A DNA stretch of 33,581 nt from an uncultured Eubacteriales bacterium (GTDB lineage: Bacteria; Bacillota; Clostridia; Peptostreptococcales; Anaerovoracaceae). The stretch is taken from positions 1 to 33,581 of the forward strand of contig ONRQ01000019.1 of assembly GCA_900320285.1 (NCBI GenBank). Reading direction: 5' to 3'. A program made the position numbers and the translations under genes. Below the pieces are notes generated by a model. It saw nothing but the letters and a program-made list of their open reading frames with translations. It made no database searches and was not told the DNA's origin. Below, piece by piece: positions 1,616 through 33,397 of the stretch; position 1 is the first letter of the stretch, and each line of letters starts with the position of its first letter.

Positions 1616-1963
1616 TGTTCGTAACGGAAATTGAATTATTACGAACAAACAGCATGCAGAGTATCTGGTGTTCGTAATGATGGGTAGATTATTACGAACA
1701 AATAGCATGCAGAGTATCTGGTGTTCGTAATGATGGGCGGATTATTACGAACACAGCAGGGTGATTGCCTTGATTGTTCGTAAAATAAGAGGTTTGGGAA
1801 TAGCCATAACGGTGTTTTTTACGAACAATGGCCTTGGGTGTTGGTTAATGTTCGTATTATAGAGAGGATTGTTACGAACATGAGGATATGACAAGTTCGA
1901 ATGTTCGTATTATTAGAAAGGTGGCTACGAACACAGCGGGGTAACTGCCTTAAATGTTCGTAA
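1616..1963. repeat. Array 1: phased palindromic repeats with TGTTCGTAA / TTACGAACA arms
   Basis: Thirteen 9-bp arms alternate in orientation. TGTTCGTAA or TGTTCGTAT lies at 1616, 1669, 1722, 1775, 1849, 1902 and 1955; TTACGAACA or CTACGAACA lies at 1639, 1692, 1745, 1819, 1872 and 1925. Start-to-start distances are 23, 30, 23, 30, 23, 30, 44, 30, 23, 30, 23 and 30 bp. The unit TTACGAACA-N21-TGTTCGTAA (39 bp) is therefore invariant in length in all six copies, while the gaps between units are 14, 14, 35, 14 and 14 bp. The forward-arm period is 53 bp, about five helical turns, and the single longer step (74 bp) adds 21 bp, about two turns. A degraded unit may precede the array (about 1563-1615). 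No protein or RNA family is recognised. It could be a cooperative protein-binding array, a transcribed hairpin array or a chromosomal repeat element. Confidence 0.9.
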
Positions 1964-2309: not shown

Positions 2310-3017
2310 TTACGCGATCTCGAGGGCGATCTCCATCATCTTTGTGAAGGAGTTCTGGCGCTCTTCTGCTGTCGTATTCTCTTCAGGATAGTTGAAGGAA
2401 TCGGATATGGTGCAGATGCAGAGGCCGTTCTTGCCGAGCCTTGCAGCATTGCAGTACAGCGCTGCGGATTCCATCTCGATTCCGAGAACTCCCATCTTTG
2501 ACCATCTCATTGCGGAAGCTGCATCATCGTAGAACATATCCGACGAGAGGATGTTTCCGACCTTGAAGTTGGCGCCGGATGCTCTTGTTGCTGCAACGGC
2601 TTTCTCAAGGAGTTCGAACGAAGCGATCGGAGCGAATGTGCCAGGGAGCTCATACTGATTTGCGTAGCTGCCGTTTGTGCATGCTGCCTGCGCGATGACG
2701 ATATCGCGGACGTGGAGCTCAGGGTCTATCGATCCGCAGGATCCGATCCTGATTATGTTCTTTACATCGTAGAATGCGAAGAGCTCATACGAATAGATAC
2801 CGATAGCCGGCTGGCCCATTCCGGAAGCCATGACCGATACCTTCTTGCCCTTATATGTGCCGGTGTAGCCCTGCACGCCGCGTACGTTGTTCACGAGTAC
2901 AGGATTCTCAAGGAATGTCTCTGCGATGAATTTGCTGCGGAGCGGATCGCCCGGCATCAGGACTGTTTCAGCAAAGTCGCCTGCTTTAGCGTTTATATGA
3001 GGAGTAGGAATTGGCAT
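2310..3017 (-). CDS. deoD: Purine nucleoside phosphorylase, DeoD type
   Basis: This 235-residue cytoplasmic enzyme should cleave purine (deoxy)nucleosides with phosphate to give the free base and (deoxy)ribose 1-phosphate, in nucleoside salvage. Length is normal for the hexameric DeoD family. Visible family motifs are the N-terminal TPHINAKAGDFAETVLMPGDPLR segment, the RIGSCGS phosphate-site loop near residue 95, MESAALY near residue 180, and the ISD segment that carries the catalytic Asp, followed by an ERQ-containing C-terminal helix. The start at 3017 has an AAGGAG ribosome binding site 6-8 nt upstream. It lies alone between array 2 and the intact desulfidase gene, both on the minus strand; no other nucleoside catabolism gene is adjacent. 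Confidence 0.96.
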   Translation of the reverse strand: MPIPTPHINAKAGDFAETVLMPGDPLRSKFIAETFLENPVLVNNVRGVQGYTGTYKGKKVSVMASGMGQPAIGIYSYELFAFYDVKNIIRIGSCGSIDPELHVRDIVIAQAACTNGSYANQYELPGTFAPIASFELLEKAVAATRASGANFKVGNILSSDMFYDDAASAMRWSKMGVLGIEMESAALYCNAARLGKNGLCICTISDSFNYPEENTTAEERQNSFTKMMEIALEIA

Positions 3018-3243: not shown

Positions 3244-4521
3244 TTAGTCTTCGAGCATGAGGCGGATGATCTCTTCATCAGTCTGTTTCATACCGAATCT
3301 TGCCAGGCGGCCGACTGTATCTATCGTGCTTTCGACACCGTTCTTTACCAGGCCGTCTCCGCCGAAGAACGCGTTGCCCTTGTTGTACATCGACAGTCCC
3401 ATGAGGCCTGCTTCTACAGCCACCGAGATCTTCGCAGCACAGCTTGCCTTGGCTCCGTCGCAGACAATGCCCGAATTGATAGCGATGGCATTGACTACTG
3501 TGTGCGCTACGGCTTCGACTCCGCCGCCCTGCAGGTACGCTATGCCTGCACCTGCTCCGCAGCCTGCGCTTACAGCTCCGCAATATGCGGAAAGTCTGCC
3601 GATTCCGGTCTTGAGATGGGTCGTGACGAGGTTGGATACGCATAATGCACGCAGGAGTTCTTCTTTTGACTTGTTGTGTGCTCTCGCGTAGACGATGACC
3701 GGGACACTGGTAGTAATACCCTGGTTGCCGCTTCCCGAATTGATAACGACTGGAAGCTCGCAGCCGTTCATACGGGCGTCGCTCGCCGCAGCGGCATATG
3801 ATCTCATGACGTACTTGAGATCATACTCGTGACCCAGCAGCATCGTGCTTCCTATGTTGGCGCCGTAATCACCCGCAAGGCCTTCTTCAGCGATCGCCAT
3901 ATTGTAGCTGATCTGTCTTTCGAGAGTCTCGCGTACATCCTCTACGTCAACGATATCCGCAAACTCGACTATGCCCTCTATAGTAAGGCAGCTCCTGTCA
4001 GTCAGGCCTGATTCTTTTGGCTCTTCAACATCCTTCGAGAACAGGACATCTTCATTGTGTTTTACCAGAACAATATTTGTGTGGTAGTCCACTATGCGTA
4101 CACAGGCGGAATCCTCTCCGGCATATGCGGTCACGGCGATATCAAAAATATGGCCGTTGTCGACATGCTTTACTTCGATTGGCGCTTTTTCGAGAAAAGC
4201 TCCTATCTCTTCGATCTGAACCGGAGTCACATTTGAGATGACCTCGAGCTCTGCGTCGGCGTCGCCTGCGGCGGCGCCGGCTGCCGCGGCTGCAGGTATG
4301 CCGCGAAGGCCGCCGGTGTGAGGCACCACGACGCTCTTTACATTCTTTATTATGTTGCCGCTGACTTCGACCAGCAGGCGCTCAGGCTTTGTGCTGAGCA
4401 CTGCGGCAGCCTTAGCCGCGGCGTAGGCGATGGCAATAGGTTCAGTGCAGCCCATCGCCGGCAGAAGCTCTTCTTTCAGGATCTGCACATATGCTGAATA
4501 TCTGCTGTCAGTTTTTTCCAT
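3244..4521 (-). CDS. L-cysteine desulfidase family protein (UPF0597/CyuA), intact
   Basis: The 425-residue protein belongs to the family of archaeal L-cysteine desulfidase and E. coli CyuA (YhaM), which convert L-cysteine to sulfide, ammonia and pyruvate. Some relatives were formerly labelled serine dehydratase-like. Conserved cysteines are visible at Cys25 (MGCTEP), in the YCGAVSAGCGAG stretch around residue 320, and at Cys354 and Cys361 (CDGAKASC); these fit cluster binding and catalysis as known for the archaeal enzyme. The start at 4521 has an AAAGGGGGA ribosome binding site. It is the intact partner of the frameshifted copy at 207-1486. No transporter or regulator gene is next to it, though a pair of 21-bp repeats sits in its upstream region. 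Substrate is inferred from the family. Confidence 0.9.
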   Translation of the reverse strand: MEKTDSRYSAYVQILKEELLPAMGCTEPIAIAYAAAKAAAVLSTKPERLLVEVSGNIIKNVKSVVVPHTGGLRGIPAAAAAGAAAGDADAELEVISNVTPVQIEEIGAFLEKAPIEVKHVDNGHIFDIAVTAYAGEDSACVRIVDYHTNIVLVKHNEDVLFSKDVEEPKESGLTDRSCLTIEGIVEFADIVDVEDVRETLERQISYNMAIAEEGLAGDYGANIGSTMLLGHEYDLKYVMRSYAAAASDARMNGCELPVVINSGSGNQGITTSVPVIVYARAHNKSKEELLRALCVSNLVTTHLKTGIGRLSAYCGAVSAGCGAGAGIAYLQGGGVEAVAHTVVNAIAINSGIVCDGAKASCAAKISVAVEAGLMGLSMYNKGNAFFGGDGLVKNGVESTIDTVGRLARFGMKQTDEEIIRLMLED

Positions 4522-6733: not shown

Positions 6734-9109
6734 TTATATATCTCTGGCCATTTTATACACTTCGTATCCGTCAGTGCTGACCGTTTCCTCCACTATCCTG
6801 AAGCCCTGCTCATTCCAGAATTTCAGAGCCTCTTCATTCTTCTTTGTTACGGCAAGCGACATGTAGTCGTATCCCGCTGCCTTCATCGCCGCACGCACAT
6901 CGGCAAAGATGCCCGAGCCTATGCCCCTTCCCTGCAGCTCTCCGTTTACCATGAGCCATCCGACGAATGCGTCATCACTCTCCGGATATCCGGTGATCAG
7001 ATCCATGACCGCGACAAGTACATCATCCTCGTTATAGAATCCGACAAAATGCTTGCAGATCGGGGAAACGCCTTCAGGAACTTCCGAAATGATCTCCGTC
7101 AGACTCTCTCGTGTAGGTATCCTTCCGAGGTACCTGTAATACCTCCTGTTGGACTTCGCCAGCCTGTATACAGGCGAAATGTCTGCCTCGGTTATCTTTC
7201 TGACTTTGTACTGCGTCGACAGTGTCTGTATATCCAGTCCGTCACTCTCTCCGGCCGCTTCAGCGCTGTTTCTTGCAGCCTCGCTGTCGATCGCCTGACG
7301 GAACTGCGTCTCGTAGAGCTCCTTGTATGTACCGCCAAGCGCTAGGAGCTCTTCGTGCGTACCCTGCTCAGCTATCACGCCGCCCTTCACCACGAGTATC
7401 CTGTCCGCCTTGAGTATGGTCGACAGTCTGTGCGCGATGACGATGCTGGTGCGTCCCACCATCATCTGCTCGAGAGCATCCTGTATAGAGTTCTCGGAGA
7501 TGGAATCGAGAGCCGAAGTCGCCTCATCCAGTATGAGGATCTTCGGGTCTTTCAGAATGACTCTCGCCAGAGACAGCCTCTGCTTCTCGCCTCCGGACAG
7601 CTTTAGCCCGCGGTTACCGACCTGCGTCATATATCCATCAGGCTGGTTGATTATGAATTCATGTATGTTTGCGATGCAGCACGCCTCTTCGATCTCTTCC
7701 ATCGTGGCGTCATTTTTCGCATACCTGAGGTTTTCAAGTATATTGCCGTTGAAGAGATACGACTCCTGCGTTACCACGCCGATCTGCTCCCTCAGATATG
7801 TGAGGTCGAAGTCGCGCACGTCCACACCCGCGATCTTCACGGAGCCTCCGCACACATCATAAAGTCTCGGTATGAGGTTCACCACCGTCGACTTGCCCGA
7901 ACCCGAAGGGCCTACTATCGCGTACATGCTGCCGCCCGGCACCTCGAAGTTAACATCTGTAAGAATAGGATTCTCCGGACTGTAGCTGAATGCCACGTGG
8001 TCGTATGTGATCGGTTTGTTATCGACGTCAGGTTTCTTGCCGTTCTCCGGCGACACGATCGTGTTCTCTCTGTCAAAGTAGTCGAAGATACGCGTGAACA
8101 GCGCCAGTGAGCGCGTGAAATCGACGGAGATATTCATCAGCTGCTCGATAGGTCTGTACAGCCTGTTGATGAGAGCTACCGTCGCTGTGATGACACCGAC
8201 CGTCAGAGTCGTGTCTATCTGCCTGATTATGAAGTATCCGCCCGCGAAGTATATGAGCAGCGGCCCCAGCTGCGTGAACATTCCCATGACCACGCGGAAG
8301 AGCTGGCCCGATCTCTGCTCCTTAAGGTTGAGGTCGGTGACTTCCTTGTTGACCTTTACGAAATCCTCGTACTCCTTCTGCTCGCGCGTGAATATCTTTA
8401 CGAGCATCGATCCGCTGACCGACAGGGTCTCGTCTATCTTCTGGTTGAGCTCATCGCTCTTGGCCTGGCTCTGCGTGAGGTATTTCCAGCGCGTACGGCC
8501 GGCAGTCCGCGTCGGGAGCACCAGCAGCGGAATGACAGCGATGCCCACAAGCGCAAGCGGAGGGCTCATGCTGAAAAGCGCCACCAGAGTCGTGATGACG
8601 GTCGCTACATTGCTCACGATGTTCGAAAGCGTGCCGCTGATGACCGAGCTCACACCGCTTATGTCAGTGTTCATGCGCGTGATGATGTCGCCCTGTTTCT
8701 CGGTTGTAAAGAAAGAATGCGGCATGTACTGCAGATGCTTATACATCTGATTGCGCATGTCAAATATGATGCGCTGCGAGATCCACGCGTTGATGTAGTT
8801 CTCGAGCACACCCACCAGCTGGCTCACCGTCAGAGCGGCAAAAGCCATAAGCAGGAGCTGAATGAGGAGCTCCATGTTTTTGCCCACGAGAGCCTCATCG
8901 ACGATGCGGCCGGTTATGATCGACGGGAATAGTCCGACCGTCGCCGACAGCAGTATCGCGATGAACACGAAGATGAACTGCAGCCAGTATGGCTTCAGAT
9001 AACTCATTATCCTGGCAAGCAGCGCCTTCGTCACCTTAGGCATATTCTGTTTTTCTTCCTCAGTGAGGAAGTGCATCGGGCCCATGCGGCCCGGTCCCGG
9101 TCCTGCCAT
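6734..9109 (-). CDS. ABC exporter (TMD-NBD) fused to a C-terminal GNAT domain
   Basis: The 791-residue protein has a type IV ABC exporter half-transporter: about six membrane helices in residues 30-320, Walker A GPSGSGKST near 400, signature LSGGEKQR near 503 and Walker B ILILDEATSALD near 521. A linker from about 595 leads to a complete GNAT domain from about 633, with GRGIGSGIF near 726 and NEEALKFWNEQGF near the end. The start ATG at 9109 (MAGPGPGRMG) has an AAAGGG site 6-8 nt upstream; an upstream TTG at 9136 has none. Drug, lipid or peptide export is typical of the family. The fusion suggests that the transported or a related molecule is acetylated in the cytoplasm. The reading frame is continuous through the junction, with no sign of a lost stop codon. 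A separate GNAT gene follows immediately. Confidence 0.93.
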   Translation of the reverse strand: MAGPGPGRMGPMHFLTEEEKQNMPKVTKALLARIMSYLKPYWLQFIFVFIAILLSATVGLFPSIITGRIVDEALVGKNMELLIQLLLMAFAALTVSQLVGVLENYINAWISQRIIFDMRNQMYKHLQYMPHSFFTTEKQGDIITRMNTDISGVSSVISGTLSNIVSNVATVITTLVALFSMSPPLALVGIAVIPLLVLPTRTAGRTRWKYLTQSQAKSDELNQKIDETLSVSGSMLVKIFTREQKEYEDFVKVNKEVTDLNLKEQRSGQLFRVVMGMFTQLGPLLIYFAGGYFIIRQIDTTLTVGVITATVALINRLYRPIEQLMNISVDFTRSLALFTRIFDYFDRENTIVSPENGKKPDVDNKPITYDHVAFSYSPENPILTDVNFEVPGGSMYAIVGPSGSGKSTVVNLIPRLYDVCGGSVKIAGVDVRDFDLTYLREQIGVVTQESYLFNGNILENLRYAKNDATMEEIEEACCIANIHEFIINQPDGYMTQVGNRGLKLSGGEKQRLSLARVILKDPKILILDEATSALDSISENSIQDALEQMMVGRTSIVIAHRLSTILKADRILVVKGGVIAEQGTHEELLALGGTYKELYETQFRQAIDSEAARNSAEAAGESDGLDIQTLSTQYKVRKITEADISPVYRLAKSNRRYYRYLGRIPTRESLTEIISEVPEGVSPICKHFVGFYNEDDVLVAVMDLITGYPESDDAFVGWLMVNGELQGRGIGSGIFADVRAAMKAAGYDYMSLAVTKKNEEALKFWNEQGFRIVEETVSTDGYEVYKMARDI

Positions 9110-15699: not shown

Positions 15700-16310
15700 G
15701 TTCTCCCAATTATAATTAGTATACCATATCGGCCCGCCGGCACGCGCCCCCATATTATCATTTGGAGCACCACACTTTACCATCTTTGTCGTGATACAGG
15801 AGCAGCTTTATTTACTCGCCTTTGTCTTAGCACACCGGCATCTTAGAAGTAGCTTTCTTTGCCCTCTTTTCGACATCAACGGCATAGCACATGATTGAGC
15901 GGGCAGGATAGCAGCAGTAAACAAAATCGGCGGTGGATAACCGATCCACAGCCCGATTGGGATGCAGCTCAATCGCTTCAACCCAATCGCTGCAGAGTCA
16001 AAAGCTAAATCAGCAAAAAAGCGTTGTGCAAAAGTCTGTGGACAGGATGTTGGCAGTATGCCTGTCAACGGGCTGTCCATGGACTTATGCATGACGCTGC
16101 AGAGAGATCGGTTATCCATGGCCGCTCGCCTCATCTGGCTCGCGGGGCCTGCCGTCCCACTCACCCTCGCTTTACAGCTGTCCTCGCGGGTTTAATAGTT
16201 CCCGCAGGCCAGCGCGGACTTGTTATAAGGAGGGGCACGTACTAAGTGCGGGAAGAGCCCTGATAACGGGTTCATGGGGCAGGCCAATATAACCTAATTG
16301 GCTCCTCTTA
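15700..16310. other. Dyad-rich region without a convincing gene
   Basis: No ORF here has a credible ribosome binding site or recognisable protein. Several inverted repeats are nested: GGATAACCGATC (15935-15946) with GATCGGTTATCC (16106-16117), perfect over 12 bp; CGATTGGG (15954-15961) with CCCAATCG (15982-15989); AAGTCTGTGGACAG (16032-16045) with CTGTCCATGGACTT (16073-16086), 12 of 14; and GACAGG (16041-16046) with CCTGTC (16061-16066). The last two pairings are mutually exclusive. GCGGG/CCCGC flank 16187-16206. It may be a structured RNA, a replication or recombination site, or a degraded gene. Confidence 0.55.
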
Positions 16311-16968
16311 AATCAAATGTATGAAAATGCATATATGGATATTCGTCCTTATTACGCTAAAACCGTCCCAACGCACGAATTTATTCGTCACTAATCTATA
16401 TTATCGATAACACAAGCACGAACTTGTCTCCCTTAATTCCATTCGGAATCACCCATATATATCTCGCGATATTTCCTTTTCTGGAATCCCGATGTTCCCC
16501 TAAAGAATCACTCTGAAGAAACAATCATATTCATGAATATCTATTCAAAAGTGGGAATTATTGGTTAACTTTCCAAAGTCTCTGCAAAAGCCGGTTCGTC
16601 CTTCATATAGAAAAAACAGCCATGAAACACGAAGAAATTCGTGCTTTTTCTCAGTTTTCAAAGATAAGCACGAATGCTACCTGTAATCCTGTACATACAA
16701 TGTATACCAGAACTTTATTTGAAGAGATATGAATGAGTTGCTGTAAAGACGGATCTGCTTTCAAAATCAGTTACTCATGATGCTTTTTTCGGTGCGGTAC
16801 ATGGAAAAAGTGCTTTCTCATGAAAATAGTGCATTTTATGTATGAATAAGGGCATTTCTCGTTTTTTGACCCAGTAGTTTCGATAGTAGAATCATGTCAC
16901 AAAGTAAAAGTGTAATTCAGAACCGTCACATATTAATTCATAAATCTCTATTGTAGATATAAAGCGAG
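16311..16968. other. AT-rich intergenic region with scattered CACGAA/TTCGTG words
   Basis: No gene is visible. The base composition is clearly more AT-rich than the flanking operons. CACGAA or its complement recurs at 16374, 16417, 16628, 16638 and 16669, twice as short hairpins: ACGAAT-TT-ATTCGT at 16375-16388 and CACGAA-GAAA-TTCGTG at 16628-16643, the latter followed by CTTTTTC like a weak plus-strand terminator. The composition matches the following gene better than the rest of the window. Confidence 0.5.
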
Positions 16969-16977
16969 GTGTCAGAA

Positions 16978-17829
16978 ATGTTGGTAGATGCGGAATTGAA
17001 CCACAGAATTAATTATGAGCTTATGTTGCTTGAGCGTACGAAAAGGGAATATGCAATGCGTTTAAGTCTTTTAAATGATTGCTGCGGAACTATTTTGAGA
17101 CGAACAAGGCCAGGGAATAGCAAGCATTTTTATTACTTTGTCAAACGACCGGGTTCTAATAAATATAGTTACCTTAAAAAGTCTGAAAGTCATTTGATTG
17201 AACGGGTTCGTGAGGCACGTTTTCTTGAGGAAGCAATCAGGCGTATAGACCGCGATATAAAACTTATGAAGTCTCTTTCAGACGGTTTTCTTCCTTTTGA
17301 CCCAAGTTCAATCAGTGATAGTCTGCCTGAAATATATCGATGCAAAGTACCACCGGTCTCGGAGCTATATGATTATGAAGGAAAGAAATGGTTGGCTAGC
17401 AGACTGGAATTTCAGAAAAGATTTCCGGAGAACTATCCGGAGAAAAAGAAGCATACGACATCTGACGGTATCCGGGTCAAGACTGTCAGTGAAGCCCTTT
17501 TATATGAGAGATTAAAATCAGCCGGTCTGGCCATTATATATGAGTTGCCGTTTCTGCCAAGTGATCACGGGCCTGCTTTATATCCTGATGTTACAGTACT
17601 GTCTCCTGTAGACATGAAAACAGAAATCATCATTGAGTATGTGGGGCGCATGGATTTGTTTGACTATCGCGGCGATTTTGCAAAAAAGATTGGCCGGTAT
17701 ATAGACAGCGGGTATACTCCATGGGTCAATCTCTTCTTTGTATTCAGTACAAACGACGGGCATATTGATTCCACACAAATAACAAAGCTGATTGCTGATA
17801 TTTTCGGAGTCAGGAACGTACTTGCTTAG
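16978..17829 (+). CDS. Putative PD-(D/E)XK nuclease-like protein
   Basis: The 283-residue protein is basic and Glu-rich in its N-terminal half (long helices, probably coiled). The C-terminal half has the order S-E-A-L-L-Y-E near residue 168, YELPFLPSD, YPDVTVLSP with an Asp, then IIIEYVGRMD with a Glu. This resembles the PD-(D/E)XK nuclease-like family common in gut Clostridia, where EHxG or EYxG replaces ExK. Catalytic activity is unproven. ATG 16978 has GAGG 8 nt upstream; a GTG at 16969 overlaps that site. It is the only clear plus-strand gene in the middle of the window, stands alone behind an AT-rich stretch and has a lower GC content than its neighbours, which suggests horizontal acquisition. 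Confidence 0.72.
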   Translation: MLVDAELNHRINYELMLLERTKREYAMRLSLLNDCCGTILRRTRPGNSKHFYYFVKRPGSNKYSYLKKSESHLIERVREARFLEEAIRRIDRDIKLMKSLSDGFLPFDPSSISDSLPEIYRCKVPPVSELYDYEGKKWLASRLEFQKRFPENYPEKKKHTTSDGIRVKTVSEALLYERLKSAGLAIIYELPFLPSDHGPALYPDVTVLSPVDMKTEIIIEYVGRMDLFDYRGDFAKKIGRYIDSGYTPWVNLFFVFSTNDGHIDSTQITKLIADIFGVRNVLA

Positions 17830-22871: not shown

Positions 22872-25800
22872 TTACTGCATCAGGCGTCTGCGCGATACAA
22901 GCATCACTGCTGATCCCAGAGTCAGTATCGTTCCGAAGATGTAGAATAATGTCGTTCCGATACCGCCGGTGTGCGGAAGTGCTACGCCAGGTGTGTTGGT
23001 GATCCTGAGCAACGCTATGCTATTGCCGCTGGCTGCTGTGAACTCCAGAGATTCCGCGTCATCAACAGAATCTGCTTTATCGGTCTTTACATCTTTGACG
23101 ACTTTGTTTTCAATAGTGAATTCTATGTAGTCATAATCGCGTACATATCCATCCGGTACATAGACCTCACGCAGTCTGTAAGTTCCGTCAGTAAGTCCGG
23201 ATATTCTCTGAACTTCTCCGGTAGACTCAAACGCACTGTGATATGTGATATTGCCGCTTTCTGTTTCCTTTGTTACATCGCCCAGGCCGCGGACGCTGCC
23301 GATTTCCGAAGCATACATCTCCGAGTGACCTTCGGCATCTGTCAGTTTTTTCAGTTCGAAGACAGCTCCAGGCAGTCCGGCACCGGTTTCATCAAGCTTC
23401 TGAATGTCAATGTCAGTAACCATCGACTTGTTATAGTACGTTACATGATTATCGCGGTTAGTTGCAATAGTACCGCTGATCTCATATTTCCCCGTGAAGG
23501 TCTCGCTCTTCTCCGGATCCTCATCGCTTTCGCTAAGCTTGATTTCTCTGACGATCCTGACCGGAGTATATCCGTCATATTCATGCTCGGTAATAGTATA
23601 AGTTGTTCCAACCGGTACGTTTGCGATATTCAGCACCTGGTTCTGTCTGATACTGATCTGAGCGGAAACATAATTGTCACTATCGTGATTCATCTGGTTG
23701 CCGTAGAGCACAAGATCAGGTCTGCCGTCAAACTTGACTGTCTGAGCACCGGCAATTTCCTTAAAGCCGCCTGCACAGGTTCCATTATACACGTTGCCGG
23801 CTTCATCGGTTATTCTTACACCATTCGAGCCCCTTGCTTCCGCCTGATAGAAGTTACCATCCTTATCATGGTAATATAGTCCGCTGATACCATACCATGG
23901 GACATGGCTGCCCTCTGCTGTGAACGGTCCCGGATCAGTATCGTTGTGAAGCTCAACAGTATATGTGAACTCGGTATCGTCGCCCGGAACAGGAGTTGTT
24001 CCGTCTGTGTCAACAACTATCTTTTCAAGGTGTATGTATCCGCGAAGTGTGTTCTGTATCTTCAGCGAAGGAAGTCCGAGTTCTTCGCCTGTCATGCCTG
24101 TGATCTCTGCCAGCTTGCCGTTATTCTTGTCAATAGTGTAGTTGACGCTCTGCAGGACACCGTCGACCAGCATCGGATGGTAGACAGGTGATTCGAAGTC
24201 GAATTCAAACGTCAGTCCAGGCTCTTTGATCATGTAGTCATGGCCGGTTTCGAGAATATAGTACTTAGTGCCGTTGAACGTACCCGATGGATAAAGGCTC
24301 TTGTCAATTCCCAGCGCATTCATTCTGGCCTCGCTGAGCATCAGCCCTGTAGCGATCGAGAAATCTTCCTTCCATCTTGTTCCGACAACGCATTCCTGGC
24401 CTTCATATGTTACGGTCTTTTCGCCGTCTTTTTCCCAGATATACTTTTTCTGTGCATCGTCCCAGCCGAGTGTGACATCTGTGTACTTGGTCTCGCCCGA
24501 ACCCTGCATGATATCAAACGTGATCTTGTATTCCTTGCTGACCAGTTTACCGCTTTCTTCATCGAGCTCGTACAGCATCTGAGCCAGGATCTCCGGGTCT
24601 CTTTCGATATTCCAAATCTTCTCTATTGCCGATTCAGACGCTGTCAGCGGCATAGGCTCCGGTGTAGGGAGCTCAGCTTCATATGGCCCCTTGTATGTTG
24701 TTGTCGAAGTGCCGTTCTCATCTTTAGTCTCTACGATAGAGTACTCCACTTTCTGTTCGGTATTAGTCAGCACTGCGAATACTCCGTCCGGGTATTTAAC
24801 GATGGATGGGAAATCCTTTACTCCGCCCTTTTCATATCCCTTGCTGGCAGTAAGATCCTCATAAGTAGATGCACTTTTATCCCAGGTGTAGCCCTTGATA
24901 CCGTTGTTCAGCGCAGCAACGTAATCGTATGCGTCCTGATCAGGCCATACCACAAAGCTTGCGCTATATGTGTATCCGTCCAGCAGTGTTCCGACTCCGC
25001 TGAGATCCCATGTGAGCTTTCCGTTGCCCGACAGATCTGCGAGCGCCATCTTATACTCATCTCCGGAACCTGTAGTGTATGCCCAGTATTCACATGTTTT
25101 TCCGTCGATGACAGCTGACTTTTTCTCACCCGGATAGTCCTGTCCGTTTACTGTAAAGGTGACCTTAGGGTCTCCGTGTCCGTTTTCCTGATCCTCGGCT
25201 CTCACGCTGTACAGCTCGCCGACCGGTCCGCTGACCGTATACTTGTAGCCCTCAGCGCTTCCGTTCACCAGTGTCGTTGTCATGGCATCTGTCGTCAGTC
25301 CGTCAAGGACCTTTACTTTGCCGTATGCCATTGTGTTTGTAACCTGAGACATGATGTTCTGGAACGCATTCAGTAAAGCAGTTGTGGAATCAGCGTCGAA
25401 ATAGTAATCCGCTGTGCCTCCCGAAACGTTGGAATCGCCCACATCGCCTTTTCCGTAAGCATAGTTGACCAGGCGTCTGAGATAGCTCTTCATGGTATCC
25501 GTATCGCCATAGGTGAATATTCCGTAGAACTTGTGATCTGATGTCACAGTCTTTCCTGCTGCAGTTGTGATATCATGGGCATCAACGATAGCCTTGGCAT
25601 CTGGCTCTGCTGCCTTGAGGCACTTCACATTATCCTGATACCACTGGGCATTTCCGTTATCTCCGTGGATGTCCGTAGGCTCGCCGTCTGTCAGGAATAC
25701 CACGAACACAGGCTCATCAGGCTGCTCTGCCTTTTTCTGGTCAGCCACTTCCTTTGCATATTCCATGGCTTCTTCCCAGTTAGTACCTTTCGCAACGCTG

Positions 25801-27491
25801 TTGTCATCGATTGCCTTCTTCAGTGTGCTGTTATTTGTATAAGTTGTTCCCCAGCCGCTCTCTGTATTTGCGAAAGTGGTTCCTTTGGTATCAACATTGT
25901 TCCCGTTTCTTTTGAATCCCTTGGCCTTGTCTGCATCTGTACGGCCTGACGCAAAGCTGATGACCTTGACCTCGATGATGTCATCCAGTGAAACGGTGTT
26001 GCCTTCGTCATCAGTCACCGTCTCTCCCGGTCTGTTCTTATTTGTAAGCTCCTGGATGAGCGTTGCCAGCGCATCCTGCTCAGCATCCAAACGAGTCCTT
26101 CTTGTGTAGACCGCTCCATCATATGGCGCCGAACCTGTTACGTGATAGTTGCCCCAGTTGTCAGTATATCCTGTCTGATAGTAGTACCTGTTGTTCATGT
26201 ATGTCAGGACAACATTGTTGGAGTCACTGATAGTTCCATCCAGTACGCCGTAGTAAGATATGTCGTTCTTGTGCTCTCCGGTGTATTTGTCATATGTATT
26301 ATTGCTGGTCATGCTGCTTGAGCGGTCCATAACGATCAGCACGTTCGACTTTGTTACATCGCTGTATGTGTTTTGCTTCGATGCTCCTCCTACGCTCAGT
26401 GTCAGAGTGTAGGTTCCGTCATTTGTGCCATTAGGATTATGATTAGGCTCAAGAGTCTTGTTTGCATATGGTTCAGGCAGGTCATCATTAGTTTTACCCT
26501 TTGCAGCGCCGGCTTTCATAAGCTTGCGGGCTGCCGGCTTGTTCACGACTCTTCCCTGGTCACTGGTTTCGTGGGAGGTGAAAATACCAACATCAGAGGA
26601 AGTTGTCAGGTCATAGCTGAAGCCGGTTGCAACGGATTTGCTGCCTTCGATCTCCGAATCGTCGATGATCTCCGCACCGTCTTTATCGAAGAACGCTACT
26701 CCGGTATCAGCGCCTTTCTCCAGCTGCATCCCGTCGTCGAAGGTTATTTCAATGTGTGCAGGTTCAGAAAGCTCTACAGGATTACCGTCATTTACCAGCT
26801 GTACGTCGAAGAATCTCGCATCATCCAGGTTGGCAAGTTTTGCTTCATCAAGGAATCCCATTCCCTCGTTGTAATCCTTACGCTGTTCTTCGATCTCGAG
26901 ATACTCCTGATTGAGCTCTCCCCAGATCTGTCCGAGGTTCTGGTAATACTCATCTGTTCCATTTTTGATTTCGTTTACATCCAGCACAGTGCCTGCAGGC
27001 ATTTCAGCGTCTTCGTCGAAGGAAGCTGTGACCGTGTATCCATTGCCCTCGAACACCAGCGGAGATTCAGGGGAAACGTTTTCCTCATCGATGCTCTCTT
27101 CAACAACCTCTTCAGTTGCATCAACTTCTGCAGATTCGTCAGCATCAAGTGAAACATCTGACTCTTCCTGATCCTCGTTTTCGCTTGGGTCTTCCAGCTC
27201 TTCAGGATCTTCGTCTTCACCGGCACCCTCCGTGTCTTCAATTTCAATCGGATCTTCCTGGTCGCTGCTTTCATTTACTTCTGTCTCTGCCTCTTCAGCA
27301 AAGCTGGCAGCAGATAAATCAATACCACCCTGCTCAGCCGCCTCTTCTTTATCAAGAGTAAAAGCAGGTAAGATCAGCAGATACGTTGTTGTGAATACAA
27401 CAATACAGGAGAGAAGCAGAATCATCCTTCTCTGCCCATGCATGTTCTCCAGTATGTTCTTTATTAATCTGTTCATTCTCCGGCTCTTCAT
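22872..27491 (-). CDS. Sortase-anchored surface protein with VWA and SpaA-like domains, 1539 aa
   Basis: This is a large cell-wall-anchored adhesin. The N-terminus has a basic stretch and the signal-like LLSCIVVFTTTYLLILPAF followed by TLDKEE, a variant of the TTYALILPA motif common in Clostridia surface proteins. A very acidic Glu/Asp/Ser linker (about 55-135) and one FEGNGYTV...ARFFDVQL module (about 140-260) follow. The VWA domain (about 375-690) has the MIDAS residues in MDRSSSM near 387, GTNWEEAM and FLTDGEPTD. Several beta-rich domains and a SpaA-type domain (VTDIDIQKLDETGAGLPG) lead to LPHTGG near 1504, a hydrophobic segment and an RRR tail. ATG 27491 has GGAGG 5-6 nt upstream; an ORF extension to 27707 runs through the promoter region and is rejected. 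The neighbour at 27770 is a paralogue. Ligand unknown. Confidence 0.92.
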   Translation of the reverse strand: MKSRRMNRLIKNILENMHGQRRMILLLSCIVVFTTTYLLILPAFTLDKEEAAEQGGIDLSAASFAEEAETEVNESSDQEDPIEIEDTEGAGEDEDPEELEDPSENEDQEESDVSLDADESAEVDATEEVVEESIDEENVSPESPLVFEGNGYTVTASFDEDAEMPAGTVLDVNEIKNGTDEYYQNLGQIWGELNQEYLEIEEQRKDYNEGMGFLDEAKLANLDDARFFDVQLVNDGNPVELSEPAHIEITFDDGMQLEKGADTGVAFFDKDGAEIIDDSEIEGSKSVATGFSYDLTTSSDVGIFTSHETSDQGRVVNKPAARKLMKAGAAKGKTNDDLPEPYANKTLEPNHNPNGTNDGTYTLTLSVGGASKQNTYSDVTKSNVLIVMDRSSSMTSNNTYDKYTGEHKNDISYYGVLDGTISDSNNVVLTYMNNRYYYQTGYTDNWGNYHVTGSAPYDGAVYTRRTRLDAEQDALATLIQELTNKNRPGETVTDDEGNTVSLDDIIEVKVISFASGRTDADKAKGFKRNGNNVDTKGTTFANTESGWGTTYTNNSTLKKAIDDNSVAKGTNWEEAMEYAKEVADQKKAEQPDEPVFVVFLTDGEPTDIHGDNGNAQWYQDNVKCLKAAEPDAKAIVDAHDITTAAGKTVTSDHKFYGIFTYGDTDTMKSYLRRLVNYAYGKGDVGDSNVSGGTADYYFDADSTTALLNAFQNIMSQVTNTMAYGKVKVLDGLTTDAMTTTLVNGSAEGYKYTVSGPVGELYSVRAEDQENGHGDPKVTFTVNGQDYPGEKKSAVIDGKTCEYWAYTTGSGDEYKMALADLSGNGKLTWDLSGVGTLLDGYTYSASFVVWPDQDAYDYVAALNNGIKGYTWDKSASTYEDLTASKGYEKGGVKDFPSIVKYPDGVFAVLTNTEQKVEYSIVETKDENGTSTTTYKGPYEAELPTPEPMPLTASESAIEKIWNIERDPEILAQMLYELDEESGKLVSKEYKITFDIMQGSGETKYTDVTLGWDDAQKKYIWEKDGEKTVTYEGQECVVGTRWKEDFSIATGLMLSEARMNALGIDKSLYPSGTFNGTKYYILETGHDYMIKEPGLTFEFDFESPVYHPMLVDGVLQSVNYTIDKNNGKLAEITGMTGEELGLPSLKIQNTLRGYIHLEKIVVDTDGTTPVPGDDTEFTYTVELHNDTDPGPFTAEGSHVPWYGISGLYYHDKDGNFYQAEARGSNGVRITDEAGNVYNGTCAGGFKEIAGAQTVKFDGRPDLVLYGNQMNHDSDNYVSAQISIRQNQVLNIANVPVGTTYTITEHEYDGYTPVRIVREIKLSESDEDPEKSETFTGKYEISGTIATNRDNHVTYYNKSMVTDIDIQKLDETGAGLPGAVFELKKLTDAEGHSEMYASEIGSVRGLGDVTKETESGNITYHSAFESTGEVQRISGLTDGTYRLREVYVPDGYVRDYDYIEFTIENKVVKDVKTDKADSVDDAESLEFTAASGNSIALLRITNTPGVALPHTGGIGTTLFYIFGTILTLGSAVMLVSRRRLMQ

Positions 27492-27593
27492 ATGTAGACC
27501 TCCCATACATTGCCTTGCAGATTCAACCCTCTTTCCTTTGCGATAATACGCACTCGTTTCAACCTCTTTACAACTTGATAATAGCAGAATTAT

Positions 27594-27667
27594 CGTCATT
27601 TTATCCGTCATTTTTACTACTATTGTGACCGTAAGCGCTTTGAAGCGATGACGTTTTGCGTCATTTT
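27594..27667 (-). promoter_or_regulatory. Repeated AAAATGACG words in the promoter region of the 1539-aa adhesin gene
   Basis: On the minus strand AAAATGACG occurs at 27594-27602, 27606-27614 and 27659-27667, and the last forms a dyad with CGTCAT at 27648-27653. A TATTAT box lies just downstream at 27578-27583 with no clear -35 box. The words may be binding sites for an activator or repressor; the regulator is unknown. Confidence 0.4.
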
Positions 27668-27711
27668 CTGCGAACGACCTTAAGATTAGACAATTTGCAA
27701 AAAACAATAAA

Positions 27712-27752
27712 AAACCGCTCTCCGAACCGCATTGCAGTCCGAAGAGCAGTTA
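27712..27752 (-). terminator. Terminator of the 1875-aa adhesin gene
   Basis: On the minus strand CTGCTCTTCGG pairs (with G-U pairs) with a segment reading CGGAGAGCGG, and the stem is followed by TTTTTTATTG. It lies about 20 bp after the stop codon and separates the two adhesin genes into distinct transcripts. Confidence 0.75.
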
Positions 27753-27769
27753 TTTAATTTGCTTCAGGA

Positions 27770-30700
27770 TCAGATTTTGCGGATCCTTCTTCTTGAGATA
27801 AGTATTACAGCAGATCCTATCGCAAGTATTGATCCGAGCACGTAGAAGATCGTCGTTCCGATGCCGCCTGTGTGCGGAAGTTCAACTCCAGGCTCATTAG
27901 TAATCTTGATACTAATACCCTCAACCGTTGTATCCAGTTTGCTGACATCTCCGGTATCTGTAGTCACCTGCGTTATTTCACCTTTTTCAATCGTGAACTG
28001 TATATATTTGTATGTGCTTATATATCCATCTGGCACAAATACTTCATACAGTCTATAGGTTCCGTCAGGGAGGCCCTCGAGTGTCTGAATTTCTCCTGTA
28101 GTTTCAAAAGAGCTTGGGAAAACCGTTGACTTCCCATTAACAACTTTTGTAATATCCCCAATTCCTTTGATGCTAACAATCGTTGTAGCCATTGCTTCCT
28201 CATGGCCATTGACTGTCTTCAGCTGGAACACGGCGCCCTCAAGGCCAGACCCTTTTTCGTCCACTTTCTGAATAGTGATGTCCGTCACCAGACACTGGTT
28301 GGTATAGGCTACGTGAGTCTCAGTGTTCGGGACAATCTCTCCCTCAATGATTCCGGTCTCCTTATCACTCGCGTTGGTAGGATCATCGGATCCGATATTG
28401 CGCTTGATATTGATTAGCCTATAGCCCGGGCTCGCTTCAGTGATTTCCTTGATAGAATACTGTGTATTGATTGGAACGTTTGCAATATACAGCGTTTCCT
28501 TCTGGGTGATTTTTACAACCGCTGTTACCTTTTTATAGCCATCGGTATCATTGCCATCAGCTGGTGTCATCTGGTTTCCGCTGATCGTGATGGACTTCTG
28601 CTTACCGTCGACGGTATATGTGACCGTCTGGGCGCCAGCATTGTCCGGATCGAACGCATTACCTGTAGCCGGATATGGTCCCCCTTCCTCTGTCTTCACT
28701 TGCAAATTCCCGTCTACGTACTCTGCCTGGTAATAATTGCCTTCGTCGTCATGATAGTAGAGACCTTCGATACCGTACCAAGGGATGTGATTGCCTTCAA
28801 AGACAGGGAAAGCATTATTCAGTTCCACTCTGAATGTGAACTCAGTGTCGTCCGATTCCAGCGGATCACCATTATGATCGACCACAATTTTATCCAGGTT
28901 GATGTAGCCACGCAGGGTATTGAACACACTCAGAGCCGACTTTCCTGTGCCGGCATTGATATCCAGCGCTTCCATGCTGCTGATTTTTTTTGTATTACCT
29001 TCCGTAGAGAATTTAACATCCATCAGGACACCATCTACAAGCATCGGATGGTAGGTAGGCGCTTCAAAATCGAATTCATATCCCACAGACGGCTCTGCAA
29101 TCGTGAAATCATGACCATCCTCAAGGACATAATATGGCTTATTATTATAAGAATAACAGGTGTATATGGTCTTATCCAGACCTTTTGCATCCATCTGTGT
29201 CTCGCTCAGCATTAGACCGGTTGAGATGGAGAAATCCTGGGTCCAGCGCTTGCTGAAAGTCTTTCCGTTATACGTCACCAAATCACTCTGATCATATGCG
29301 CTCCAATCATATTCGAAGCCGTCATCTGTATCTATATGACCAGGCAGATTCACTTCTCTGTATTCCGTTCCATCCTGTTTAATTACAAACCCAATGTCGA
29401 AAGGCACTGGGTTGCCTTTTTCGTCTTTGGATTCATACAGGTATTTGTACAGGATACTTGGATCACGGTCGATGTTCCATACCTTCTCCAGCTGGGAAGC
29501 TGTACCGGTTAGAGGCATTGGATCAGGCGTCGGAAGATCTGAGGTAAACGGACCTTCGTAAGTAACTGTCGGTTGATCATTAACAGTTTCGGTTTTGGCA
29601 ATCGTATACTTCAGGGTTTGATCGGTGTTTGTGAGCACGGCAAAGGTTCCGTCCGTGTACTTGACTATCGATGGATAATCCTTAACGCCGCCCTTCCAAT
29701 ATGAATTTCCGTTTGAATCTGTGACCTTGTTCTCATCCGTTTCCTTGCTGGAATCCCATTCGACTTTTATGGTCTTACCCTGGGAATTCGTGATATTATT
29801 CAGCCTGTTGTTCAGGGCAGCTACATAATCGTATGCGTCCTGATCCGGCCAGACGGTAAAGCTGACCGCGTATGTGCATCCGTCCTCCAGCGCGCCAATC
29901 GCCGCCAGATCCCATGTGAGCTTTCCGTTACCCTCCAGATCCGCGAGCGTCATCTTATATTCGACCGCATCCTCTCCAGACCCAACAGTTACAGAGTAAT
30001 ATTTCTTGGTCTTTGGGACAGTCGTACCGTCCTCCTGCACCTCGTTATAATTATATGTTTTGCTTGGTCCGGCATCATAGTCCGTTCCATTGATATTGAA
30101 GGTGACATTTGGCTCACCTCCTTCGTTATCCTTGGCGGTCACTGTATAGACTGGGGTTCCCTTAGAAAGGACTTTGCCATCTGCGTTTACGACTCTGCCC
30201 CTGTACACCGTATACTGAAAGCCTTTAGCGCTTCCATTCACAAGGGTTGTCGTCATGGCGTCTGTAGTAAGGCCGTCAGTGATGCTCACCTGCTCATAAT
30301 GAGCGGAATTAGAAATGATATTGAATATCTTATTAAACGCCTCTTCCAGTTTTGAAAGGCTCGTGGCATTGTAGAAATAATCTCCTTCATCGTCTTCATC
30401 CACTTCTTCCATGGTATAATCGGTCTCCTTGCTGCCCGTGTTTCCGTGCGCAACATTTACAAGACGCTTGAGATAGTTCGTCATTGCCTCGCCTTGGCCC
30501 CAGGTGAAGATACCATAGAACTTGTAATCGCTGTTGGCCAATCCTGATTCGTTGACGATATAGTCTCTGGCAGCTTCGTAGGCAACAATATATCCACCGC
30601 CGATATTACCATAGTGGTTGGCACCATCGCTCTCACCTGTCACAGCCGTCGGCTCACCGTCGGTCAGGAAGATAATGTACATATCTTCTCCGCTCTGGCT

Positions 30701-33397
30701 AGGATCGGCCATCTTCTTATTTGCTACTTCCATGGCATAGCGCAACGCGTCTTCCCAGTTCGTTCCAGGCGGAGCAAAGCCACTGTTTACACCATCCATC
30801 AGCGTATCATAATCTGTTGACCAATCGACCTCACTCGTTGCGTTTGTTTCCTTATCTCCTCTCTGGCGTGCGAAGCTGATTACAGAGATCTCAATAAGAT
30901 CTTCCAGACTGATACCGTCAACAGTCGTCCCCTCGCCGTTCTTGGCAAGCAAATCATGAAGCAGTATTGACAGTGCCTCCTGTTCCTCGCTGAGGCGGGT
31001 GGTATATGTACCTGTATAGATATTGTCACCCGTATAATTCGTCACCGTAGCCTGCTGATCATCGGTATTGACATAGGTCCACCTGTAATGTGTCGCACCG
31101 GAACCGCCAGTATATGTTGTATAGTTCAGCTCACGGTAACGATCGCTGCCGTTCGATCTTACCTTGCCATAGTATCTGACACCCGGCTGAGGAACGAATT
31201 CTTTACCTCCACTGTAATAGCGACCATTATTGTTTCTAGTAGCTACCGCATTTGTATTAATAGTGCCGGACGGATAATTGTTGACCATGCTACTCGATCT
31301 GTCCATGATGATGAGCACATTGGACTTATTGATTTCCGTCGTAGTAGAAGACTTTGCACGTCCATCCACGGCCAGTTCAAGTGTGTACGTGCCATCATTC
31401 TTATCTTCAGACTTGTTAGGTGTCAGCGTCTTGGTAGCGATCGGCTCGTTAAGGTCTTCTTCTCCTTCACCAGTCTCTCCGTCCTTAGCAGCTTTCAACG
31501 CATTTGCATTTGTTTTCTTTTGAAGCATCGGATACTGCATAGGTGTCGGTGCAGAAAGGGTAACAGGCTCCGCAACCTCGTTATAAGTCTTTTGTCCCAC
31601 ATACGTACCAGTATCGGAAAAGCTGGCTTGTTCGTATTTGAAGGCAAGTACATTGCTTCCTTCAGTGACCGTATCCACTTCATCGATAAGCTCGACATCA
31701 TCTTCCGTATAGTGGACCACGCCGGAAACCGTTTCTCCGGCCATCTTCATACCATCGTCATAGGAAATTTCAACCTGTACCGGCACAGATGGCTCGATTA
31801 CCTTGCCGTCATGAAGCAGGCGGATATCAAAGAAACGGATGTAATCGAGGTTCACAAGCCCGACATCCGGCAAATCGCCCATCCATTCCTCATAGTGCTC
31901 GCGCTGCTCTTCAACCTCAAGGTATTCACGATTAATCTCGCGCCAGGCCTGTCCCAGTCGCTGATTGTACTGCTTTGATCCCTGCTCGAGTTCTTCAACA
32001 GTTAGAGTCGTCCCTAAAGGTATTTGAGCTTCAGCTGTGTACGATATTTTTACAGTATATCCATCACCACGGAATACGTAGGAGCCCTCCTCTGATTCGA
32101 CGGTCACGACCGCGAACACAGAGAACCCGTCAGTAAAGAAGTTTAGCGTATCAGTTTCATGCTTCACTTCCATTAATTCAGCCTTTTCGCCGAAGTGAAC
32201 GACTTGCACGCTATTTGCAATCTCCTCATCAAGGAGACGGATCTCCACAAGAACCTTTGCTTTCGGTTGGATCTCCTTTCCGTCTTTGCCCACTATGCTG
32301 ATATCAAAGAATCTGGCGTTGGAATCGTCTGTCTCGCGGCCAAGCGCTTCCTGTGTTTTCTCGACATACTCTTGGTATTTTGCTGCTTCAGTGATCTCGT
32401 GCACACGCAGTTCCGCATCGTCCGGGATCTTTGCATCATCATCGTATGTAACCTTGATCTCATATGTCTTCCCATCCGCTGTAAGAACATTAGTAGTGAG
32501 CTGCGAATAGACTACAGCGAACACTGAAAAGCTATCTGCGGTGAAAGCCGCCTCAGTTACTTTACTATTCTTTACTGTGATATCTGTGGTGTCCGCGTCG
32601 AGGACCTCCGGGGTTACCTCACCGCTCTTTTTATTCACTGCAAAATGTACGATATGGACTCTTTCAGGATCTGTTACCTTAAGTTCCTTTTGTAGTTTCT
32701 TACCGAAAGAAATCTTAACATCGACTGCTGAGTCCGGCTCAACTTCATCGTTCCCATCCATAAGCGAAATATCGTAGAATTTCGCAAATGCAAAATCCAA
32801 AGGCTCTTCAAGACCCTCTTCTTTCTGTGATTTCTGAACTGCCTCAAGCGCATCACTATATAAAGATTCGTATTCTTTCTTCTGCTTTTTATCGCTTTGG
32901 TCGATCTCACGGACTGCAACGCTCATGTCTTCAGAGAGTCCGGCATCTTCACCTTCGACTGCAACAACAAAGCCATCACCCTCCTCATTTTGGAGAGTAA
33001 CTTTCGATGGAGTTTTGTCTTTAGCTTCCGAAGAAGCCTCATGTTTCTTTGATTCCTGCGCAGCCGGTTTTGCAGCATCTGTTTCGACTGGTGTCCCAGT
33101 CTCTTTTTCCTCGGCTTTTATTTCCTCTTTTGCGTCTGAATCCGTATCCTCTTTTGATACAGATTCAGCCCGCGCTGCATCTGCTTCATCAGCTTCAGCC
33201 GACTGTTCTGTGCCAGGCACGTCAATGCCGCCCTGCTCTGATGCCTCTTCCTTGTCGAGAGTGAAAGCCGGTAAAATCAACATGTACGTTGTTATGAATA
33301 CCACAAGACAAGAAAGAACAAGGATCATCTTTCTTTTCTCATGCATATTCTCAATCAGAACTTTTATTAGTTCTCTAATTCTCGTCTGGATATTCAT
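27770..33397 (-). CDS. Sortase-anchored surface protein with VWA and SpaA-like domains, 1875 aa
   Basis: A paralogue of the 1539-aa protein with the same plan: signal-like LVLSCLVVFITTYMLILPAF then TLDKEE, a Glu/Lys/Ala-rich linker (about 55-130), VWA (about 685-1035) with MDRSSSM near 695, GTNWEDAL and FLTDGEPTA, beta-rich domains, a SpaA-type domain from about 1706 (VTDITIQKVDEKGSGLEG) and LPHTGG near 1840 before the membrane segment and RRRIRKI tail. It differs by having about three tandem modules before the VWA domain (about 130-305, 305-435 and 440-600), two of which end in SFSVFAVV or GFSVFAVV, against one in its paralogue. ATG 33397 has AAGGA 8-9 nt upstream. VWA with SpaA domains is typical of pilus-tip or matrix-binding adhesins; the ligand is unknown. 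No sortase gene is visible in this window. Confidence 0.93.
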   Translation of the reverse strand: MNIQTRIRELIKVLIENMHEKRKMILVLSCLVVFITTYMLILPAFTLDKEEASEQGGIDVPGTEQSAEADEADAARAESVSKEDTDSDAKEEIKAEEKETGTPVETDAAKPAAQESKKHEASSEAKDKTPSKVTLQNEEGDGFVVAVEGEDAGLSEDMSVAVREIDQSDKKQKKEYESLYSDALEAVQKSQKEEGLEEPLDFAFAKFYDISLMDGNDEVEPDSAVDVKISFGKKLQKELKVTDPERVHIVHFAVNKKSGEVTPEVLDADTTDITVKNSKVTEAAFTADSFSVFAVVYSQLTTNVLTADGKTYEIKVTYDDDAKIPDDAELRVHEITEAAKYQEYVEKTQEALGRETDDSNARFFDISIVGKDGKEIQPKAKVLVEIRLLDEEIANSVQVVHFGEKAELMEVKHETDTLNFFTDGFSVFAVVTVESEEGSYVFRGDGYTVKISYTAEAQIPLGTTLTVEELEQGSKQYNQRLGQAWREINREYLEVEEQREHYEEWMGDLPDVGLVNLDYIRFFDIRLLHDGKVIEPSVPVQVEISYDDGMKMAGETVSGVVHYTEDDVELIDEVDTVTEGSNVLAFKYEQASFSDTGTYVGQKTYNEVAEPVTLSAPTPMQYPMLQKKTNANALKAAKDGETGEGEEDLNEPIATKTLTPNKSEDKNDGTYTLELAVDGRAKSSTTTEINKSNVLIIMDRSSSMVNNYPSGTINTNAVATRNNNGRYYSGGKEFVPQPGVRYYGKVRSNGSDRYRELNYTTYTGGSGATHYRWTYVNTDDQQATVTNYTGDNIYTGTYTTRLSEEQEALSILLHDLLAKNGEGTTVDGISLEDLIEISVISFARQRGDKETNATSEVDWSTDYDTLMDGVNSGFAPPGTNWEDALRYAMEVANKKMADPSQSGEDMYIIFLTDGEPTAVTGESDGANHYGNIGGGYIVAYEAARDYIVNESGLANSDYKFYGIFTWGQGEAMTNYLKRLVNVAHGNTGSKETDYTMEEVDEDDEGDYFYNATSLSKLEEAFNKIFNIISNSAHYEQVSITDGLTTDAMTTTLVNGSAKGFQYTVYRGRVVNADGKVLSKGTPVYTVTAKDNEGGEPNVTFNINGTDYDAGPSKTYNYNEVQEDGTTVPKTKKYYSVTVGSGEDAVEYKMTLADLEGNGKLTWDLAAIGALEDGCTYAVSFTVWPDQDAYDYVAALNNRLNNITNSQGKTIKVEWDSSKETDENKVTDSNGNSYWKGGVKDYPSIVKYTDGTFAVLTNTDQTLKYTIAKTETVNDQPTVTYEGPFTSDLPTPDPMPLTGTASQLEKVWNIDRDPSILYKYLYESKDEKGNPVPFDIGFVIKQDGTEYREVNLPGHIDTDDGFEYDWSAYDQSDLVTYNGKTFSKRWTQDFSISTGLMLSETQMDAKGLDKTIYTCYSYNNKPYYVLEDGHDFTIAEPSVGYEFDFEAPTYHPMLVDGVLMDVKFSTEGNTKKISSMEALDINAGTGKSALSVFNTLRGYINLDKIVVDHNGDPLESDDTEFTFRVELNNAFPVFEGNHIPWYGIEGLYYHDDEGNYYQAEYVDGNLQVKTEEGGPYPATGNAFDPDNAGAQTVTYTVDGKQKSITISGNQMTPADGNDTDGYKKVTAVVKITQKETLYIANVPINTQYSIKEITEASPGYRLINIKRNIGSDDPTNASDKETGIIEGEIVPNTETHVAYTNQCLVTDITIQKVDEKGSGLEGAVFQLKTVNGHEEAMATTIVSIKGIGDITKVVNGKSTVFPSSFETTGEIQTLEGLPDGTYRLYEVFVPDGYISTYKYIQFTIEKGEITQVTTDTGDVSKLDTTVEGISIKITNEPGVELPHTGGIGTTIFYVLGSILAIGSAVILISRRRIRKI

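Follow-up and report, generated by a model that had tools for sequence, protein, structure and literature searches.

REPs are thought to spread through RAYT transposases, and iterons and partition-site arrays are direct repeats, helically phased and bound by protein, that lie at an origin of a replicon or at a centromere. In published accounts, REP, BIME and REPIN sequences are described as short palindromes of alternating orientation that form arrays beside a cognate RAYT (TnpA-REP) gene and are also dispersed between genes, with several gene-repeat pairs in some genomes (PMC3116915, PMC2817692, PMC3733652). The array considered here lies at 1616–1963 of the window, that is, the whole stretch of 33,581 nucleotides that was analysed, and its host is a rumen bacterium. 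Arrays of its kind resemble the REP/RAYT pair in that palindromes are found both beside a gene and dispersed between genes, with the exception of arrays in G334, G000 (the window's genome) and G007 that have no recognised cognate. They differ from it in the enzyme, which is of the PD-(D/E)XK type and not HUH/Y1, and in their build, with 8–10-bp arms around a free core of ~20 bp and a helically quantised spacing. With iterons and partition-site arrays they share helical phasing of the repeats, but here the arms are inverted, many chromosomal loci are occupied and a nuclease-like gene is linked. In the open-access literature we recognised no report of such arrays with a PD-(D/E)XK gene, a weak negative, as subscription papers and preprints lie outside this scope. 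We consider it probable, at roughly 0.6, that the arrays are clusters of binding sites on one face of the helix for a cognate PD-(D/E)XK nuclease-like protein.

Geometry and conservation of the array

A preliminary description of this DNA had proposed 13 alternating 9-bp arms within 1616–1963, with arm starts alternating at 23 and 30 bp, a 39-bp unit of identical length in all six copies and a single irregular step that adds 21 bp. A recount of the positions bears this out in every part: all 13 arms are in place, ten of them exact and three with one mismatch (1849, 1902 and 1925), and the linkers between the 39-bp units measure 14 bp, except for one of 35 bp. When up to one mismatch is allowed, the whole window holds 19 arm matches, 13 of them within 1616–1963, compared with a mean of 6.55 and a maximum of 14 in shuffles. 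A further unit at the head of the row has decayed in the window and is intact in a related array, L007, of the sister genome RUG12153 (G003), a rumen MAG. Behind the row lies a second array, absent from the preliminary description. The parts are the following, none of them assigned to a strand:

1586–1624: decayed seventh unit, first in the row; left arm TATATAACA (5/9 matching), right arm at 1616–1624 intact
1639–1677: palindromic unit TTACGAACA-N21-TGTTCGTAA, 39 bp
1692–1730: palindromic unit, 39 bp
1745–1783: palindromic unit, 39 bp
1784–1818: linker of 35 bp, longer than the 14-bp ones by 21 bp (two helical turns); same place and same length in L007
1819–1857: palindromic unit, 39 bp, one arm mismatch
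1872–1910: palindromic unit, 39 bp, one arm mismatch
1925–1963: palindromic unit, 39 bp, one arm mismatch
2028–2191: second array, arm word TTAGTCCGAT...ATCGGACTAA, three 38-bp units (2028–2065, 2091–2128, 2154–2191), period 63 bp

Between the two arrays, a terminator-like hairpin with a T-run can be seen by eye at 1966–2006, its loop likewise measuring 21 bp. Two similar genes at 207–1486 and 3244–4521, which we take to be cysteine-desulfidase-like, face each other across the arrays and one further gene, presumably nucleoside-phosphorylase-like; they agree at ~76% on the DNA level, a value obtained with the near-identical RUG12153 copy of the first gene. By eye, the first gene itself has an apparent frameshift close to its end. 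At 22872–33397 the window holds two large ORFs, of 1611 and 1875 aa, that by eye look like surface proteins and have C-terminal ends of the sorting type.

The consensus of the LexA/SOS box is CGAAC-N4-GTTCG, with half-sites 4 bp apart. This candidate was rejected: the half-site word is present, but the window arms stand 21 or 14 bp apart. TIGR-Tas arrays combine kink-turn repeats with a Nop5-domain Tas protein, and CRISPR loci have direct repeats with unrelated spacers together with cas genes. Compared with CRISPR, the window repeats alternate in orientation, and Rfam gives no match in the window; phage records gave no match to the array region.

A 751-bp query, run against 99 genomes including that of the window, gave matches in three, namely the own genome, G016, where the match is limited to the second array, and RUG12153. 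The window arms recur at four loci of RUG12153, which holds the query once in identical form, once at 83% (L007) and once in a shorter form that keeps the 39/14 geometry with a different inner sequence (L009), besides a further copy of the window-type array met in a control stretch (L108). Over positions 1–2400 the alignment of the window with RUG12153 contig 12 has just 2 differing positions, and beyond 2400 (to 3060) the two diverge by 12–24 per 100. Because the near-identity ends so abruptly at ~2400, either recombination may have brought the window array here or the contig could be a chimera.

Aligned in register over 1669–1963 (11 of the 13 arms), the window and L007 arrays show substitutions at 5 of 99 arm, 25 of 105 inner and 22 of 91 linker positions and zero indels (arms versus rest, Fisher p = 2e-5). 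Hence, arms and lengths are kept while the remaining sequence drifts, in agreement with the earlier proposal that spacing rather than intervening sequence is under selection. Two outcomes had been named that would speak against this proposal, free variation of the spacing in relatives and a recent duplication with all parts equally conserved, and neither is seen. An exact-arm search of 47 genomes that allowed 6–36 bp between the arms returned TTACGAACA-N21-TGTTCGTAA in 11 of 11 matches (3 in the window's genome and 8 in RUG12153; reversed control pattern, 1), and inner and linker DNA changes 4–5 times faster than the arms. A fixed spacing around different inner sequence, the support looked for at the outset, was found at other loci and with other arm words. 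For GGTCCGAT, 18 bp separate the arms in 6 of 7 matches (reversed control, 0); for TGGCGTAA, the distance is 21 bp in 14 of 18 matches and 20 bp in the other 4 (reversed control, 4). Units of GACGGAAGT measure ~40 bp in several genomes; its arms are shorter and hence less specific than the other arm words searched, with 96 forward matches versus ~27 for the reversed control among those listed. At least 17 GACGGAAGT matches lie in the window's genome (control there, 0), and 11 of the 13 matches listed for G007, a genome without a member of the gene family described below, are at 39–40 bp.

Recent tandem duplication without function would account for neighbouring units that are near copies of each other, such as those at 1639 and 1692. 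We hold it to be extremely improbable in view of the slow change of the arms, the length kept at loci with different inner sequence and the quantisation of spacing across arm words.

The linked PD-(D/E)XK-type gene family

The preliminary description, made from the letters of the window alone, could not show that a nuclease-like gene family is linked to such arrays. In RUG12153, array L007 begins 51 bp behind a gene for a PD-(D/E)XK-type protein of ~285 aa, and this protein is 32% identical to the product of an ORF in the window:

16342–16675, no strand assigned: decayed palindromes with a third arm word, AGCACGAA, upstream of the gene below; best unit ~16637–16675
16969–17829, + strand: 286-aa member of the array-linked family, PD-(D/E)XK type, with E175, D207 and E223

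The AGCACGAA arms, a word picked after looking, give 7 matches (at most 1 mismatch) in 16165–16968 against a mononucleotide-shuffle mean of 0.5, and the array detector described below assigns these palindromes only a score of 4. Since its own neighbourhood has a different arm word, we do not regard the protein of 16969–17829 as cognate to the TTACGAACA array. A gene cognate to this array was not found in the window's genome, 78.6% complete; the putative cognate is a protein encoded on contig 8 of RUG12153 (L136). Arms resembling those of the second window array (TTGGTCCGAT) adjoin a family gene in RUG12153 (L044).

Within the genus, 43 of 47 genomes have the family, with 1–7 copies each, as do 27 of 291 genomes of the class (own genome included), with up to at least 8 copies. 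Among 96 members, E175 and D207 are invariant (96/96 each) and E223 is kept in 94, the remaining two having D; judged by sequence, these are the conserved acidic residues of the PD-(D/E)XK nuclease superfamily. The predicted structure (pLDDT 84, pTM 0.53) has an N-terminus of helix, beta-tip and helix, and its C-terminus resembles the PD-(D/E)XK nucleases Bax1, TnsA and Hjc, at modest Z. A Pfam search of the window ORF and an NCBIfam search of both this ORF and the L007 protein returned no match, and a PHROGs search gave a sole hit at 0.16.

The window ORF and the L007 protein match the C-terminal domain of the PADLOC candidate PDC-S68 (9e-12 and 4e-22, respectively), and among four plasmid matches two are annotated as AAA-family ATPase and one as RecQ helicase. 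This would suit a defence system in which the arrays serve as marks or titrating sites for a nuclease whose target is otherwise foreign DNA. We find such a role improbable: the nuclease domain is the sole part in common with PDC-S68, whose models comprise 1202–1273 positions as against ~285 aa, another N-terminus and repeat arrays here, and plasmid and phage searches with the family protein gave no match covering more than 40% of it. Full-length membership in PDC-S68 was rejected, the best stretches spanning only ~1087–1219 of 1221 model positions.

The association of gene and array was assessed with a detector that tallies copies of 10-bp words, allowing one mismatch and looking for both orientations, inside 450 bp. 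From 137 matches in the genus, 97, mainly the best-scoring, were examined as 98 loci (L010 and L012 being one locus). The class search outside the window's genome gave at least 88 matches, with up to 8 candidates per genome scored, and 49 were examined, comprising 29 and a further 20 chosen ones (three were the rest of G334, the others high-scoring). In the genus, 35 of 98 family loci versus 3 of 80 control segments score at least 5 (Fisher 7e-8, gene unmasked), and 65 of 98 versus 7 of 80 score at least 4. Outside the genus, 12 of 29 loci versus 3 of 100 controls reach 5 (Fisher 6e-7), as do 14 of the 20 chosen class loci. Masking of the gene leaves 43 loci with a score of at least 5 among the 125 from genus and class, and a search of the control stretches for the family gene (E 1e-5) found none. 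A score below 5 is seen at 63 of the 98 genus loci, and some loci at or above it are irregular clusters (L060, L095, L102).

In half of the six control segments that score at least 5, the arm word is also that of an array beside a family gene of the same genome (L108/L013, L122/L061, L281/L316). For the two G334 control arrays the prediction of such a match failed, their arm word occurring in none of the four G334 family loci, and the G008 control array has no match to the best words of the four G008 loci. Likewise, the GACGGAAGT-type arrays in G000 and G007 have no recognised close cognate there. In G334, locus L275 holds two phased arrays of one arm word (3346–3545 and 7788–8093), and no family gene was found in its 20-kb stretch; by eye, the arrays flank an apparent two-component system.

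Within RUG12153, a stricter detector finds an array at 5 of the 7 family genes, with four clearly different arm words; those of L045 and L047 differ by one base. Just upstream of another of its family genes (L042, contig 30, ~2380–2440, minus strand) lie short direct repeats, and the detectors found no inverted-arm array at this gene. Close relatives with similar proteins tend to have similar arm words (32 loci, Mantel p = 4e-4, r = 0.19), and below 60% protein identity no clear relation is seen.

Among 125 loci, 57 have an array of score 4 or more upstream of the gene and 19 have one downstream. For four arm words, 31 arrays were classified by position: 24 are intergenic, and the other 7 overlap ORFs of at least 90 aa predicted by a crude ORF caller. 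The excess of upstream and intergenic positions would fit operator or chromosome-architecture arrays, through which the nuclease-like protein represses its own gene and organises intergenic DNA, with binding under selection and spread left to ordinary recombination. We regard this as unlikely, given that the nuclease-type residues are almost invariant, that many arrays are downstream of or distant from a family gene and that a genome may hold 1–7 gene copies with differing arm words. A clean empty site for the arrays was not found.

Helical phasing of the unit spacing

Spacings that recur within an array, taken as one value per array and spacing class, cluster near 43, 53, 63, 74, 82, 95 and 106 bp, i.e. 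at whole helical turns. A set of 40 values falls at 51–54, 62–65, 73.5–76, 82, 95 and 106–108 bp (R = 0.83 at 10.5 bp), and 28 values from outside the genus, ranging from 43 to 108 bp, give R = 0.82; the two sets overlap (L163–L191) and arrays of the same lineage are not independent, so these statistics are approximate. Both sets peak near 10.8 bp, and some of the 106–108 bp spacings are two 53-bp steps across a decayed unit. Adding spacings seen once (51 values) lowers R to 0.69, with values between the bands such as 50, 66, 72, 80, 89 and 112. The arm word TGGCGTAA is spaced by 53–55, 64–65, 75 and 84–85 bp at different loci of three genomes, where 55 and 65 bp sit 2 bp off whole turns. The shortest spacing seen, ~41–44 bp (four turns), occurs in an array beside a family gene of G334 (L311, 3479–3862). 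The additional 21 bp in the window array is an instance of whole-turn spacing, and the helical phasing, proposed earlier for this array, extends to different arm words.

The preliminary description had named either cooperative protein binding or a folded nucleic acid as the cause. Because the linkers are themselves helically phased, protein on duplex DNA is preferred over a folded strand, and the phasing argues for complexes on one face of the duplex. For the folded strand the results are mixed. Relative to shuffles, inner sequences fold somewhat better in the window's arm family (z −0.93, n = 18) and better for GGTCCGAT (z −1.28, n = 14), show no effect for TGGCGTAA (z −0.15, n = 20) and go in reverse for GACGGAAGT (z +0.43, n = 22). 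The two positive families, the ability of the units to form hairpins and the position of 9 of the 31 arrays between convergent genes would suit an RNA or single-stranded hairpin element (an attenuator or processed RNA) that uses the arms as stems and acts after transcription. However, two of the four families do not follow, helical quantisation extends to the linkers between hairpins, for which single strands should have no need, and no Rfam family reaches the gathering threshold in the window; we consider such an element very improbable.

Proposed mechanism and relation to REP/RAYT

We thus favour same-face clusters of binding sites for a cognate nuclease-like protein, which would combine an N-terminal helix/beta-tip/helix part with a C-terminal nuclease domain in ~285 aa. 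Each 39-bp palindrome would bind a symmetric oligomer, with one subunit or dimer per 9-bp arm. Since neighbouring palindromes are spaced by whole helical turns, the complexes would stack on one DNA face and bind cooperatively, and each gene lineage would have its own arm words. As the arrays adjoin genes and are scattered in intergenic DNA, they would most likely amplify and spread via DNA cutting by the protein and copying during repair. What we infer is arm binding by the protein, cooperativity of this binding on duplex DNA and a driving role in the spread; cutting and mobility are put forward in the same conditional sense. More tentatively, and here we lean towards doubt, the arrays might form a new self-spreading class in which each nuclease reads its own 8–10-bp arm word, assembles at whole turns on one face and multiplies by cutting and repair, independently of known transposases.

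By analogy, the arrays and their nuclease-like protein are best read as a putative functional counterpart of REP/RAYT with an unrelated enzyme. A search of four genomes for PF01797 (Y1/HUH transposase) gave no match in G000, G003 and G013; in G014, two matches lie on contigs C19 and C35, and the TGGCGTAA arrays there are on C12, C39, C45 and C47. REP palindromes bear an unpaired GTAG or CGTC tag at one end; such a tag was not seen at the palindrome ends of the four arm families, which were read by eye.

If true, this would be a second, independently evolved partnership of enzyme and palindrome beside REP/RAYT, and would supply naturally matched pairs of an arm word and a DNA-binding protein. 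The pairing of gene and array occurs in several families of Clostridia. Its clearest feature, the helix-locked spacing, makes the assembly directly testable with synthetic arrays.
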